A stretch of 64,000 nucleotides of DNA from Glandiceps talaboti (lineage: Eukaryota > Hemichordata > Enteropneusta > Spengelidae). The stretch spans positions 19,217,342 to 19,281,341 of the forward strand of contig NC_135549.1 in NCBI RefSeq assembly GCF_964340395.1, in the 5' to 3' direction. Below, piece by piece: positions 2,119 through 19,936 of the stretch (the stretch's first letter is position 1; every line of letters starts with the position of its first letter). The notes under the pieces are model-generated. The model saw only the letters and a list, made by a program, of their open reading frames with translations. It did no database searches and was not told the DNA's origin. The translations under genes were made by a program, and so were the position numbers.

Positions 2119-2213
2119 ACTACTGTTGTGAACGTTGGCGGAAAACCAGAGGACGTGTCGTACACAGTATCTAAAGACCCAATTGACGATTCTATGGTCC
2201 TCGGTGAGACTAT
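2119..2213 (+). CDS. BRICHOS gene, 5' piece of the interrupted exon
   Basis: The acceptor is atttccag. The reading TTVVNVGGKPEDVSYTVSKD continues to VLGET and then stops mid-codon (AT) at the transposon. The last three bases, TAT at 2211-2213, are the left copy of the target duplication. The sequence CTCGGTGAGAC here resembles a splice donor but lies inside the coding frame that resumes at 19937. Confidence 0.8.
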
Positions 2214-2472
2214 CACTAGTAGAAAAAATAGTACAGTTTACGACACTTTCCGTACTATAGTTCAGATTGAGTTCAATTCTGTACTTTTATGCTGATGAGG
2301 TGGACGTTTCTGTACTTTCCCATTAGCGCCTGTCTAATCGGATTATACTCGATCTGAAAAATAGTTCAGATTGCGAGTCGGAAGTGATTTGAATACATTT
2401 GCATTTAGTTCAGAATATATTCATGAGTTCACCCCCATAACCGGGCAGTAAACAAATGAATATTCAAATCTA
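2214..2472 (+). repeat. Left terminal inverted repeat of CACTA element
   Basis: It starts CACTAGTAGAAAAAATAGT and ends near ATATTCAAATCTA. It matches the reverse complement of 19675-19933 over its full 259 bp by eye. It contains an in-frame TGA (2293-2295) that would end host translation. Confidence 0.9.
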
Positions 2473-3488
2473 CCGTGCTTGCAATCAATACGTACATAAA
2501 CGCTATACGTGTAGCTAGTGTATTCGATACATATGTATGTATATAAGCAGGCTTATGATATGAACTACATGGTTAGGACGTACGTAGATTGTAATATCAC
2601 AGGGCTCATTTTGAAATAAATGTTCGTAGTACGCCTTTTCATTATGCACTACATACCGCCACCACTAAACGTGTTTCACATTTCTACGCGTTTGATGCAT
2701 AGTAATACAGATTTAGATGACATGACAATCGTTTCCAATAATAGTTTAAAATTGGGCCACAAATATTGCTAGTGTATGGAGCTTCTTAACAAACCTGACC
2801 GGCCAATAGCGTCAACAAACTCACAGTAGAGACGTGCTGACAGATTTGAGTCTGTGGACATTATTTCTAGCTAAGTAAAATTGAGTGACTATTGGGAATA
2901 TTATATGGCATCCATGTCGTCCATGTCGTCTATAGTTTCTGACTGACCGTGTTATGTACAACGTAACGCTGAACGAAATACGGTCCATCAGGAATTAACT
3001 AGACTAACCTCTATGGGAATAGTATTCTTGTCCATGTGTCGTTTATAGAACAATTAAGTGTTAGGGTGTGATCTTCACAGTAATAAACAAGCCTTTAGAA
3101 GAACAACAGGTATTCACGCCTCAAATATCTTGGGCATCATCCAAATTACGATCATGAGCACCAAAGTAAAGGAAATACTTAATGACGTTCGGCATGCAGA
3201 ACCCCCCCCCCCCCGGGCCCGTACCTATGGGTACATGCCCGGCATCCATGTAACTGTTATATCACTCTACGTGACGATTCTGAGGGCCCTCATCTCTTAT
3301 TCTCTTGTTTTATTTCAATTATACTCATAACTCCTGTTTTTATAGTATAACTGTACAATTGGCTTCGATCAGTGCATTCCAGATTTTCATGAGTCATGAG
3401 TGCACATTGCACAGATATCTGCAGAATACTTAAAAGGATTATGGGTAATGTATGCATATGCGGGAAAAACAAACTGCTGTAAGGAGCA

Positions 3489-3642
3489 TAGTCTCGCTGC
3501 CAGACTCGAGACTATCGTCCCTAATCTGTTTACCGAGCGGCGCAGCCGCGAGAATAGAGGGGGACTGGTCCCGCTCTTCTCGCGGCTGCGCCGCTCGGTA
3601 AACAGATTAGGGACGATAGTCTCGAGTCTGGCAGCGAGACTA
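3489..3642. mobile_element. 154-bp foldback element with 9-bp target duplication
   Basis: It is a near-perfect palindrome starting TAGTCTCGCTGCCAGACTCG and ending with the inverse, with GC-rich arms containing GGCGCAGCCGCGAGAA. It is flanked by direct TAAGGAGCA at 3480-3488 and 3643-3651. A 9-bp duplication with long arms is typical of Mutator-like foldback MITEs. A related single arm is at 31126-31200. Confidence 0.8.
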
Positions 3643-3651
3643 TAAGGAGCA

Positions 3652-4797
3652 CTGACTTTGCCCTCATATCTTCATCCCATTTTGCACTGAAGAAGTTTCA
3701 CATGGCTCTCATATTTCATATATACTCTTTCTAAATATATGGTGATGCAACATGAGTAAAAATAACTGGGGTTAACTAAGTTTGGTAGTCAATATAGCAG
3801 GTTTACCATCAAACTGACGCAAAATTTGTTTCAAATTTGTCTAGTAAAAACCGTTGGCCCAGTTGTCGATTAGGCTTACAAGTTACACAAAGCATGATAA
3901 GACACTGTGAATGGTGCAAATAAACAACGTGCGAAATGCCAAATACCAAATGCAAACAATACAAGCGAACAAAAGGGCCTGTATGCACTCTAATAGCCCG
4001 ATATTTTGCCTAAAATCAGGCTCACATGTGCGAACGGTGTGTTTTTGACGTACCTAGTAGGCAGTGATGTAGATAATAGCCGGTTACCGGTCACAACGCC
4101 CAGCTATAACTTATAAGTATAACAGTTGTGGGACCGGCTTAGGAAAGTACTCAAACCTGACGATCATTGAACAAATTCTAAGGTTGGAAAATTAAATATG
4201 AGTTGCCCGGGAGTTCTAATAGCAAGTAAAATACCCAAAGTGTAAACAAAAAGATAAATTAATTCATAATTATTTGGAAAACATTAGACGATTACGCAGT
4301 AAAACAAGACTGGCCACGCTATCGCTAGCGAAAGCCTTCGAACTAGTTTCATAACGACCGGACGTTGAAGGAAGCGCGAAGCGAAGTGTGAGGTCAATGT
4401 GACGTCTCATGATGATGTATGATGCATCAACATGACGTTTACGTAGAGTTGCACTAAATGTTTTCTAAACTTCAGTGGAAAGAATTTTTGTCGATCAGAC
4501 ACTGACTATGTTTAAATTCTTAAAACATCTGAGAAAACTGAAGAGGGGAAGCAAAATGTGACACTGACAGACAAGCCAGACGTACGGCACATGTACAGAA
4601 GGCGAGGCACACCCTCTGATGCAAACTGGACAATTATCGTGCGTGTCACGTATAAGGCATCAGATGTAATACATGTAGCTAACCAAATATTCTTGTACTG
4701 CAGTCTTTCTTGTAACAGGTATTGGAAATTGTCAGAAACCTGATGATTTTATGACTGAATAAGTTTCGATACGGAGACGAGAGAGAGGGGGAGACGG
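3652..4797. other. Transposon interior, no gene recognised
   Basis: Only short ORFs are present, none with a recognisable domain. Confidence 0.5.
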
Positions 4798-18300: not shown

Positions 18301-19378
18301 CCCTACACGACTGGCGTTTGTAAAAGTCAGTTTTAAACCATAATTACTACACCTCTTTATCTTCTCGGCAAGAACATGCAGTGCTGCAATCCAACGTGAG
18401 GACCTCTCACCAACTTTCAGATCACTTCACATTGGGAACGTTGGTGAGAGTTCTACTAATATAATTCAGACTGAGGCAAAAAATATAGCCTTTCTGAGTT
18501 GAAATCCGAGGTTTAAATCCTGATATCTGAAAATTCCCAATCAACCCAGATTACATTGAATAAAAAATAAGTCTAACAAACAATTTATGATTTTTCAGTC
18601 CCGAAACTTGCTATTATCCATACACTGTATACAAAGCTAAATACACGGTGATTGGTGTATCGCACTCCTTGACTGAGTGGGTCGGAAAAAAAATAGGTAG
18701 ACTCACTTGTCATAAATCGATTTATAAATCCACAAAGGCACTGTGACAACTAAAGCAGTCCCTTTACAGACCATTTTTCTTTAGAAATAAATAGGCTAAA
18801 ACAATACTGAATGACAGGCAGTCCAAGGTATGCGAAACCATAAGCGAGCGCGTACTCACGATGCTAGATTAACACACTATTTTACCTGCGCATTGAAGAC
18901 GCACAGTAAAAAGACCAGTTTTCAACATTAATGCAGGAAATACAAAGCTAACAATTCAAAATTGTATAAAATGTAAGAAAACAAAAAACAGGCGACAGTC
19001 AGAGCATGCATGAACTTCGATTTACAATACCATTATTAAGTTCTTGCATTTTGGGGCTAATGAAGTCATAGAGACTAGAGTGGGCGAGTTTCATCACAGT
19101 TAGTATAATCAATGGCACCGTGATAATTCTGACTTTCACTTGAAACTGGACCAGAACAGTCTAGGTCGGACGAGTCGTCATCATCAATTCAAAGGCGACG
19201 TAACCAAATATACACCGTGAATTCATCTTAGATCGCACCGAGTTGAACAATCATGTCTGTCATTGTAGAATGTAGACCTTTACGCTGTTTGACCGACTAT
19301 TGAAGTATAACCCACATAGGTGATATTTCATTGACCTACATGGAAATGCTTGTAAATACTTTTTGCAAGTAGTAGTAG
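15343..19378. other. Transposon interior, no gene recognised
   Basis: Low-complexity and AT-rich sequence with short ORFs only. A half-element CATAGACCCTACAC at 18294 lacks a right arm. Confidence 0.5.
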
Positions 19379-19410
19379 CTCAGACCACTCTAGTATTTTA
19401 GTGGTCTGAG
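19379..19410. mobile_element. 32-bp palindromic insertion, type B
   Basis: Arms are CTCAGACCACT and AGTGGTCTGAG. Flanked by GTAGTAG at 19372-19378 and 19411-19417. The flank is itself a GTA run, so the exact duplication length is less certain here. Confidence 0.72.
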
Positions 19411-19674
19411 GTAGTAGTAAGAGTTTTTGCTAACGTTTACATGCTAGCGTAGTTGTACATGTACGTATACATGTCAGTTCGTATGTACATGTACATTAAA
19501 TGTAGCTCTCATCATATCATACACTGTACATGTGTGTAACCCTTTTCTTTTGCACCCTCCCCCTCCGCCTTCATGTGGTCAAACACAGACAACTAACTAA
19601 CTAAATAGTGTTACTGTTAGTTTTCTGTGGGTCAAACAATTAGTGTACACGCCTTGAATCACATGCAGGCGAGA

Positions 19675-19933
19675 TAGATTTGAATATTCATTTGTTTACT
19701 GCCCGGTTATGGGGGTGAACTCATGAATATATTCTGAACTAAATGCAAATGTATTCAAATCACTTCCGACTCGCAATCTGAACTATTTTTCAGATCGAGT
19801 ATAATCCGATTAGACAGGCGCTAATGGGAAAGTACAGAAACGTCCACCTCATCAGCATAAAAGTACAGAATTGAACTCAATCTGAACTATAGTACGGAAA
19901 GTGTCGTAAACTGTACTATTTTTTCTACTAGTG
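19675..19933 (-). repeat. Right terminal inverted repeat of CACTA element
   Basis: Reverse complement of 2214-2472, 259 bp, ending CTACTAGTG followed by the TAT duplication (19934-19936). Confidence 0.9.
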
Positions 19934-19936
19934 TAT

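Follow-up and report, generated by a model that had tools for sequence, protein, structure and literature searches.

A giant, probably non-autonomous CACTA-like transposon in a coding exon of a BRICHOS gene of the hemichordate Glandiceps talaboti

How does 17.7 kb of DNA come to stand inside an open coding exon, and what becomes of the gene that it divides? A 64,000-nucleotide stretch of the Glandiceps talaboti genome (assembly GCF_964340395.1, contig NC_135549.1, positions 19,217,342 to 19,281,341 of the forward strand; hereafter, the window) raises this question, for one exon of a BRICHOS gene is split there by a long element with inverted ends. We consider it very likely that a giant, probably non-autonomous CACTA-like transposon of about 17.7 kb jumped into the third visible exon of this gene. 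Such events have precedent; what makes the element a notable variant is its size, its copy number, the lack of a detected transposase and the largely concerted change of its ends. The initial annotation of the window covered neither the repeat family nor the C-terminal peptide exon, and it understated the interest of the divided gene.

The element begins with CACTAGTAG at position 2214 and ends with CTACTAGTG at 19933 (Table 1). Its terminal inverted repeats (TIRs) are identical at 259/259 positions and diverge sharply beyond them; when 270 bp were scored as an inverted repeat, the identity of the arms was 266/270. These ends and coordinates, the 259-bp repeats and the flanking TAT duplications bear out what the initial annotation had claimed. 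Six AGTWCAG motifs occur in each 259-bp end, at TIR positions 17, 46, 66, 97, 150, and 194, compared with four in the 17.2-kb interior, and none of 20,000 first-order random sequences contained six (mean 0.075, maximum 2). A short motif repeated near the ends is a hallmark of CACTA elements.

A count over the 590-Mb genome gave 163 exact copies of the 52-bp end (81 forward and 82 reverse), against none of the reversed control on either strand (0 + 0). All 40 places scored, of 304 candidates, match the element's first 270 bases with 100% identity, and a 45-mer just inside the left end has 121 exact occurrences. Among the 100 of 163 ends that were listed, we recognized 49 pairs and 2 unpaired ends, with a median element length of 17,697 bp; 40 of these 49 pairs measured 16.5 to 18.5 kb, and the remainder measured 3.3, 19.3 to 22.2, and 35 to 37 kb. 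Insertion sites were read for 45 of the 49 listed pairs (three pairs of 35 to 37 kb and one nested in such a pair were left out) and for one copy of a subfamily, D, giving 46 sites, of which 45 were readable (one contained Ns). A perfect 3-bp duplication, mostly of the form T-N-A, was present at 43 of the 45 readable sites, the window's included, where about 0.9 would be expected by chance. A chance origin of the ends is excluded, because the first 270 bases recur identically, 163 exact ends exist and 43/45 sites carry the 3-bp duplication. The CACTA start and TAGTG end were seen in the window and in 14/14 copies fetched at both ends, and the start in 10/10 variant left ends; all ten of these extra copies begin with CACTAGTAG, and most of their variant bases are in the outer portion of the end. 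Mean divergence among 16 copies is 0.156% (maximum, 0.32%) across their last 1.9 kb; between the window copy and a full copy, A, there are 31 substitutions in 17,367 aligned bases. Judged from these sequences, the family is a very young burst.

The family also includes a natural short form of 3,275 bp (C4:13108447-13111721) with its own TCA duplication, in which 2,676 bp of one end and 601 bp of the other are kept at 99.96 to 100% identity. The listed left-internal 45-mers are spread unevenly, with 24 on C4 (32 Mb), 1 on C2 (34 Mb), and 0 on C3. The TIR pattern had 0 matches in viral contigs.

On the side of the gene, removing the element and one TAT makes the exon read ...DDSMVLGET-ITELCEGRNKYWLETAQPGIA across the join 2213/19937; between the acceptor at 2119 and the donor that follows 19998 the frame has no stop. 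VLGET thus joins ITELCEG in frame, as had been proposed, and the open exon completes the BRICHOS domain: the joined protein matches the Pfam BRICHOS model from residue 40 onward with 56.4 bits (E = 3.6e-15, profile positions 5 to 91, cut-off 25), and the solved ITM2B BRICHOS structure (8rnu, E = 1.7e-5) aligns through the join without a gap there. The two BRICHOS cysteines, in DSCYI and ELCEG, align to DKCYV and RLCHD of ITM2B. As the initial annotation had also noted, the second cysteine (TGT in CTATGTGAAGGG) is encoded beyond the right end of the element, and the occupied frame, ITSRKNSTVYDTFRTIVQIEFNSVLLC, runs 27 codons into the left end and then stops. The score of the domain drops to 42 bits for the occupied reading and to 36.7 bits for the part left of GGTGAG, both still above the cut-off of 25. 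The visible coding exons all have GT-AG borders and matching phases (Table 1); exons farther upstream in the gene fall outside the window.

A six-frame genome search with the joined exon returned 8 matches, namely, the two halves of this exon and six others (L031 to L036) that are individually weak (E values from 0.007 to 0.47). The earlier statement that excision restores the frame exactly stands on paper, for the joined sequence; an unoccupied copy of the split exon was not among the 8 matches in this assembly. In 6/6 related exons the insertion point is open, with neither intron nor gap, and in the seven-row alignment it falls in a block free of gaps, where Gly, Ile, Cys, Gly, and Trp are invariant; Gly29, Ile32, and Cys36 of the window exon are invariant in 7/7 rows, which includes the second cysteine as Cys36. 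Homologues with an intron at this point, which the initial annotation had named as contrary evidence, thus did not appear among the related exons of this genome, and its placement of the element in an exon agrees as well with the BRICHOS match across the join and the ITM2B alignment. An intron at the insertion point was rejected on the basis of these six ungapped exons together with the donor-acceptor tests described below. A protein database search with the joined BRICHOS part gave 4 candidates, none of which was scored, and a Pfam BRICHOS search of the genome itself gave no match, with its controls also silent, so that it is uninformative for a domain split among exons.

The exon modelled next, and probably last, encodes a cationic, Trp-rich peptide with four cysteines. 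It is counted as a model rather than a fact because other in-phase acceptors exist between 20039 and 21534, the two upstream ones giving frames of 78 to 92 amino acids (aa). As modelled, the peptide exon has a net charge of +5 and a pI of 9.7, compared with -19 and 4.05 for the rest of the protein. Among the 298 frames of 20 to 70 aa in the window that follow an acceptor in phase 1, 3 have at least four cysteines and a net charge of at least +4, and only the frame of this exon contains tryptophan. AlphaFold2 run on the single sequence predicted a beta-hairpin (strands 7 to 20 and 24 to 36, pLDDT 85.7, pTM 0.40); sequence and fold searches of the PDB with the peptide gave nothing meaningful, with no Foldseek match below an E value of 2.6. 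The translation has no dibasic site between the second cysteine and the peptide, and because of this we call the gene only BRICHOS-peptide-like, by analogy, rather than a proven antimicrobial precursor.

A duplicate of the peptide exon lies 47 kb upstream (C1:19190674-19190790; L053 and L054). It is 85% identical in protein and 87.5% identical over 481 aligned positions matching window positions 20453 to 20919; it has decayed, with an in-frame TGA and a change of Cys to Tyr, and no BRICHOS exons were seen in the 9.6 kb read there. Two of the related loci, L031 (C1:6079860) and L033 (C1:6073111), are neighbouring BRICHOS-like genes followed by an in-phase, cationic exon rich in Cys, Tyr, and Trp, and their peptides may form another candidate peptide family. 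A peptide-like following exon was not seen within about 1.5 kb at the other four related loci.

We found no transposase in the element when its six read-through frames, each in two overlapping halves, were scanned with Pfam. The sole signals in these frames were a sub-threshold reverse transcriptase match and simple-repeat artefacts with E values of up to 1; PF03154 matches were set aside as simple-repeat or sub-threshold noise, and PF02992 had no match within the element. The reverse transcriptase signal (PF00078, 20.2 bits over about 9875 to 10366, under the curated cut-off of 29.6) falls in the second of two broken remnants. The longest open piece, of 163 aa in both the window copy and copy A and of 132 aa in copy D, belongs in the first two to this second remnant; copy A carries the same broken remnant as the window copy. 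The other remnant contains in the window copy a 292-bp tandem duplication (units 6406-6697 and 6698-6989) that copies A and D do not have. The window copy and copy D diverge by 0.6 to 3.0% in each of 18 one-kb steps, the lowest value resting on only 314 aligned bases, and no clearly protected coding block stood out among these steps. Elsewhere in the genome, Transposase_21 has 10 matches, with open frames of up to 998 aa. Longer copies were considered as the autonomous form, and the one read whole (19.1 kb) was without transposase. The CACTA label of the initial annotation thus draws support from the ends, the size of the duplication and the repeated motifs, and lacks that of a detected transposase. 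Since no Transposase_21 transposase was detected inside, we file the element only as CACTA-like and probably non-autonomous, and since no transposase of any kind was detected in it, it probably moved in trans. A palindromic 156-bp repeat within the element (3488-3643), with relatives at 31126-31208 and similar pieces elsewhere in the window, is probably a nested small transposon.

Table 1. Features of the window, numbered from its first nucleotide
Feature	Position	Strand	Remarks
Coding exon (linker, acidic proregion; ENVFTLIL...FDN)	204..347	+	Acceptor ...acaaacag, donor AAC/GTGAGT; phase fits next exon
Coding exon with first BRICHOS cysteine (DSCYIKPL)	860..970	+	Acceptor ...gtttttag, donor CAA/GTAAGA
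Left part of split exon (TTVVNVGG...VLGET), including first TAT	2119..2213	+	Acceptor ...atttccag
Target site duplication, left copy, TAT	2211..2213	.	Read in sequence
CACTA-like giant element	2214..19933	. (orientation follows window)	17,720 bp; ends and duplication
Left terminal inverted repeat, 259 bp	2214..2472	+	Six AGTWCAG motifs
Broken non-LTR (long terminal repeat) reverse transcriptase remnant	6063..7072	+	Reverse transcriptase assignment by eye
Second broken reverse transcriptase remnant	9624..10776	+	Limits by eye; PF00078 sub-threshold
Right terminal inverted repeat, 259 bp	19675..19933	-	End TATTTTTTCTACTAG/TG, like a 3' splice site
Target site duplication, right copy, TAT	19934..19936	.	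Read in sequence
Right part of split exon (TELCEGRNKYWLETAQPGIA), second cysteine	19937..19998	+	Donor CAG/GTAAGC
Modelled next, probably last, exon (AASCGSGCWPVFRWQWKWVWRGWKWIRIEVRVSICVCVG, then stop; cationic, Trp-rich, four-Cys peptide)	20535..20653	+	Acceptor ttctgttcctaacacag, matching phase

Could the cell instead splice the element out as a new intron, from the cryptic donor G/GTGAGA at 2203 to an acceptor at or just past the right end, so that the gene works or yields a slightly shorter protein? Splicing of dSpm from maize exons is known, the right end TATTTTTTCTACTAG resembles an acceptor tract (12/15 pyrimidines), the donor fits 6/9 of the consensus, and a splice from 2203 to 19954 would enter the peptide exon in frame with the loss of nine residues. 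Yet when 5 donors (at least 6/9) were combined with 8 acceptors (at least 8/15), the LCEGRNK segment stood in an open frame in 0/40 pairs, and none restored the full exon. Splicing at GGTGAG, the other contrary case that the initial annotation had raised, is not favoured either: this phase-1 donor with the best right-end acceptor (2203 to 19932) reaches a stop after three codons (MVL-VYY, then stop), and the sole open pair, 2203 to 19954, uses a weak acceptor (8/15) and drops the second cysteine. We therefore regard splicing of the element as quite improbable. More improbable still is an assembly artefact in which a repeat was joined into the exon; a family of more than 100 copies invites mis-joins, but here the two flanks are parts of a single exon and stay in frame, the 3-bp duplication is perfect, all of this lies on one 35.9-Mb contig, and the 292-bp tandem duplication private to the window copy among the three copies compared argues against a pasted consensus. 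It is unlikely, if less starkly so, that the insertion was a neutral passenger in a gene that had become a pseudogene beforehand. The decay of the upstream peptide-exon duplicate fits such a history, whereas the four visible exons are open with regular borders, the peptide exon is intact and no second lesion was found among them. What the sequence shows directly is an insertion with a 3-bp duplication in an open BRICHOS exon by a member of a young family.

The 17.7-kb unit might nevertheless be autonomous, with its own transposase divided among many small exons and of a family that Pfam does not recognize. Introns are described in plant CACTA transposases (PMC4158355), and the fairly uniform length of 40 of the 49 listed pairs is what an intact unit would show. 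However, no transposase domain was detected and none matching PF02992, although this model finds frames of up to 998 aa elsewhere in the genome; three full copies have no long open reading frame; no clearly low-divergence block stood out between the window copy and copy D; and the 3,275-bp derivative has a target duplication of its own, though its deletion may postdate insertion. We consider autonomy unlikely. Several observations weigh against a CACTA-like element moved in trans. Two of the 45 readable sites have no 3-bp duplication and were read as 4-bp duplications (TTTA/TTTA and TATA/TATA, the latter ambiguous as it lies inside a TA run). Three 8.4- to 8.5-kb stretches around Transposase_21 frames (L050, L051, and L123) contained no TIR match beyond chance, the remaining seven of the ten frames were viewed with about 1.5 kb per side, and in none of the stretches read did we find an autonomous partner with the ends of this element. 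Conceivably, too, the element holds a multi-exon transposase of a kind not yet on record. The TIR is also longer than those of three animal relatives described in PMC1636069 (10, 27, and 54 bp, with 2-bp duplications).

The ends of the family appear to change together. Copy D, a subfamily copy 1.8% diverged from the window copy, has ends that are identical to each other over 259 bp but not to those of the window copy; of the nine differences, eight fall within the outer 33 bp, and the six AGTWCAG motifs are at unchanged positions. Both ends equalled the window's in 12 of the 14 copies fetched at both ends, and in the other two the right end had one difference. With the D end as query, the 40 places scored formed 18 pairs by neighbourhood plus 4 ends with no listed partner; end scores were equal in 12 of the 18 (e.g., 96% and 96%) and unequal in 6, mostly by about one position. 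The ends thus look homogenized within most elements, not strictly in all, and because of this the equality of TIRs says little about age; we rejected it as an age estimate, given that the ends of copy D match each other yet differ from the window's. The outer bases are apparently either changing fast or being swapped. Their joint change may point to end-to-end copying during repair or transposition, combined with selection by a changing transposase. As a tentative proposal, which we hold to be possible rather than probable, a long-lived, transposase-less 17.7-kb transposon may keep jumping by re-tailoring its ends; the burst of its newest version, to about 80 copies, would be so recent that insertions in host coding exons have yet to be purged.

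Since open frames are also common by chance (across random points, the median was 63 aa and the 95% point was 179 aa), only joined frames backed by homology were counted when we looked for other exons hit. Across the joined sites there were 41 frames of at least 60 aa, of which 12, chosen by eye for being clear of simple repeats and runs of Ns, were searched with Pfam, so the resulting count is a lower bound. By homology, two other copies also interrupt host coding exons. The insertion at C8:19360977 joins an exon resembling histamine N-methyltransferase (PDB 1jqd, E = 3.2e-10, with an alignment that crosses the junction), although this frame stays below the cut-off of the Pfam methyltransferase models (best E = 1.6e-5). 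The one at C1:8496692 joins a cadherin exon (PF00028, 33.7 bits against a cut-off of 28.8) whose Pfam match lies right of the junction, while alignments to CELSR1 in the PDB start at residue 10, ahead of the junction at 17. A VWD-like joined frame at C1:29448329 was sub-threshold (14.7 versus 22.9 bits) and had no PDB support. One site lies in a non-LTR endonuclease frame (PF14529, above cut-off) and three lie in retroelement-like frames assigned by eye; most other Pfam matches were set aside as simple-repeat or sub-threshold noise. Supported host coding exons at 3 of 46 sites, the window's included, are compatible with exons not being avoided.

If the element moves in trans, a transposase encoded elsewhere would bind the AGTWCAG repeats in both ends and move the 17.7 kb as one unit. 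The occupied allele would yield a BRICHOS domain truncated in the left end, lacking the second disulfide cysteine and the C-terminal cationic hairpin peptide, or no stable mRNA. Loss of function and excision are inferred. Clean excision would restore the open frame; if both TATs stayed behind, the three extra bases would, by sequence reasoning, amount to one Ile codon and leave the frame intact.

As a rule, non-autonomous DNA transposons that have multiplied are short ones. An element of 17.7 kb with scores of near-identical copies and no detected enzyme would be evidence that a CACTA-type transposase is not halted by length as such. The end variants of the family form a natural series in which the co-evolution of ends and transposase can be studied. 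With coding-exon insertions at such low divergence, the family is likely still polymorphic, and a population could then be used to test for excision, splicing, and loss of function. To this the host gene contributes a candidate BRICHOS peptide, an unusual Trp-rich predicted hairpin that is probably knocked out in this haplotype.

The window also contains a row of sulfotransferase genes on the minus strand (21686-24726 and 29897-31078). The second matches PF00685; the first comprises a sulfotransferase-like frame (23605-24726) and a broken copy (about 21686-22388), both assigned by eye. Non-LTR reverse transcriptase pieces lie outside the element at 31985-33715 on the plus strand, and an exon-like frame at 51227-51985 on the minus strand has the look of a NAPE-PLD-type metallo-hydrolase (HTHYDH motif), again by eye.

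Titles and abstract openings of the literature on CACTA, giant and non-autonomous elements and annelids, on BRICHOS with tryptophan and on insertions in antimicrobial genes gave no like case. The gene resembles the annelid precursors of arenicin, alvinellacin, capitellacin, nicomicin, and HfBRI peptides, as described in PMC5431198, PMC6265681, and PMC10745061, in that BRICHOS is part of an acidic proregion and a cationic peptide forms the C terminus. Preproalvinellacin of Alvinella has five introns and carries its antimicrobial peptide on the last exon (PMC5431198), and 13 HfBRI precursors combine BRICHOS, a dibasic site and a C-terminal peptide (PMC10745061). A dibasic site before the peptide is described as common among the BRICHOS antimicrobial precursors treated in PMC10745061 and PMC6265681. 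Unlike these annelid precursors, the window gene has no dibasic site, and its peptide has seven Trp and the cysteine spacing C-x3-C...C-x-C; the annelid peptide, in these accounts, is often a Cys-bearing beta-hairpin, and that of the window is a predicted hairpin with four Cys.

The element shares its large size with Polinton/Maverick and Teratorn, members of the giant eukaryotic transposons, which PMC6431247 counts as such above 20 kb; in contrast to them, it has no viral or replication domain in Pfam scans, makes 3-bp duplications and has CACTA ends. Plant CACTA (En/Spm) elements have TIRs that start with CACTA and end with TAGTG and make a 3-bp target duplication (PMC4158355). The window element agrees with them in these ends, in the duplication and in a short motif repeated near the ends, and differs in its 259-bp TIRs, in having no detected transposase or ORF2 and in an interior made up of broken repeats, with little variation among the copies compared. 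The animal TRC elements described in PMC1636069 (SmTRC1 and relatives, of the CACTA superfamily, with Transposase_21) measure 4.7 to 9.2 kb and have TIRs of 10 to 54 bp, 2-bp duplications, and a transposase open reading frame. Unlike them, the window element is 17.7 kb long with a 259-bp TIR, a 3-bp duplication, and no transposase detected, whereas Transposase_21 frames such as theirs are present in this genome, and the TIR of the Tribolium TRC element starts with CCCTAGTAG (PMC1636069), one base off the CACTAGTAG of the window element.

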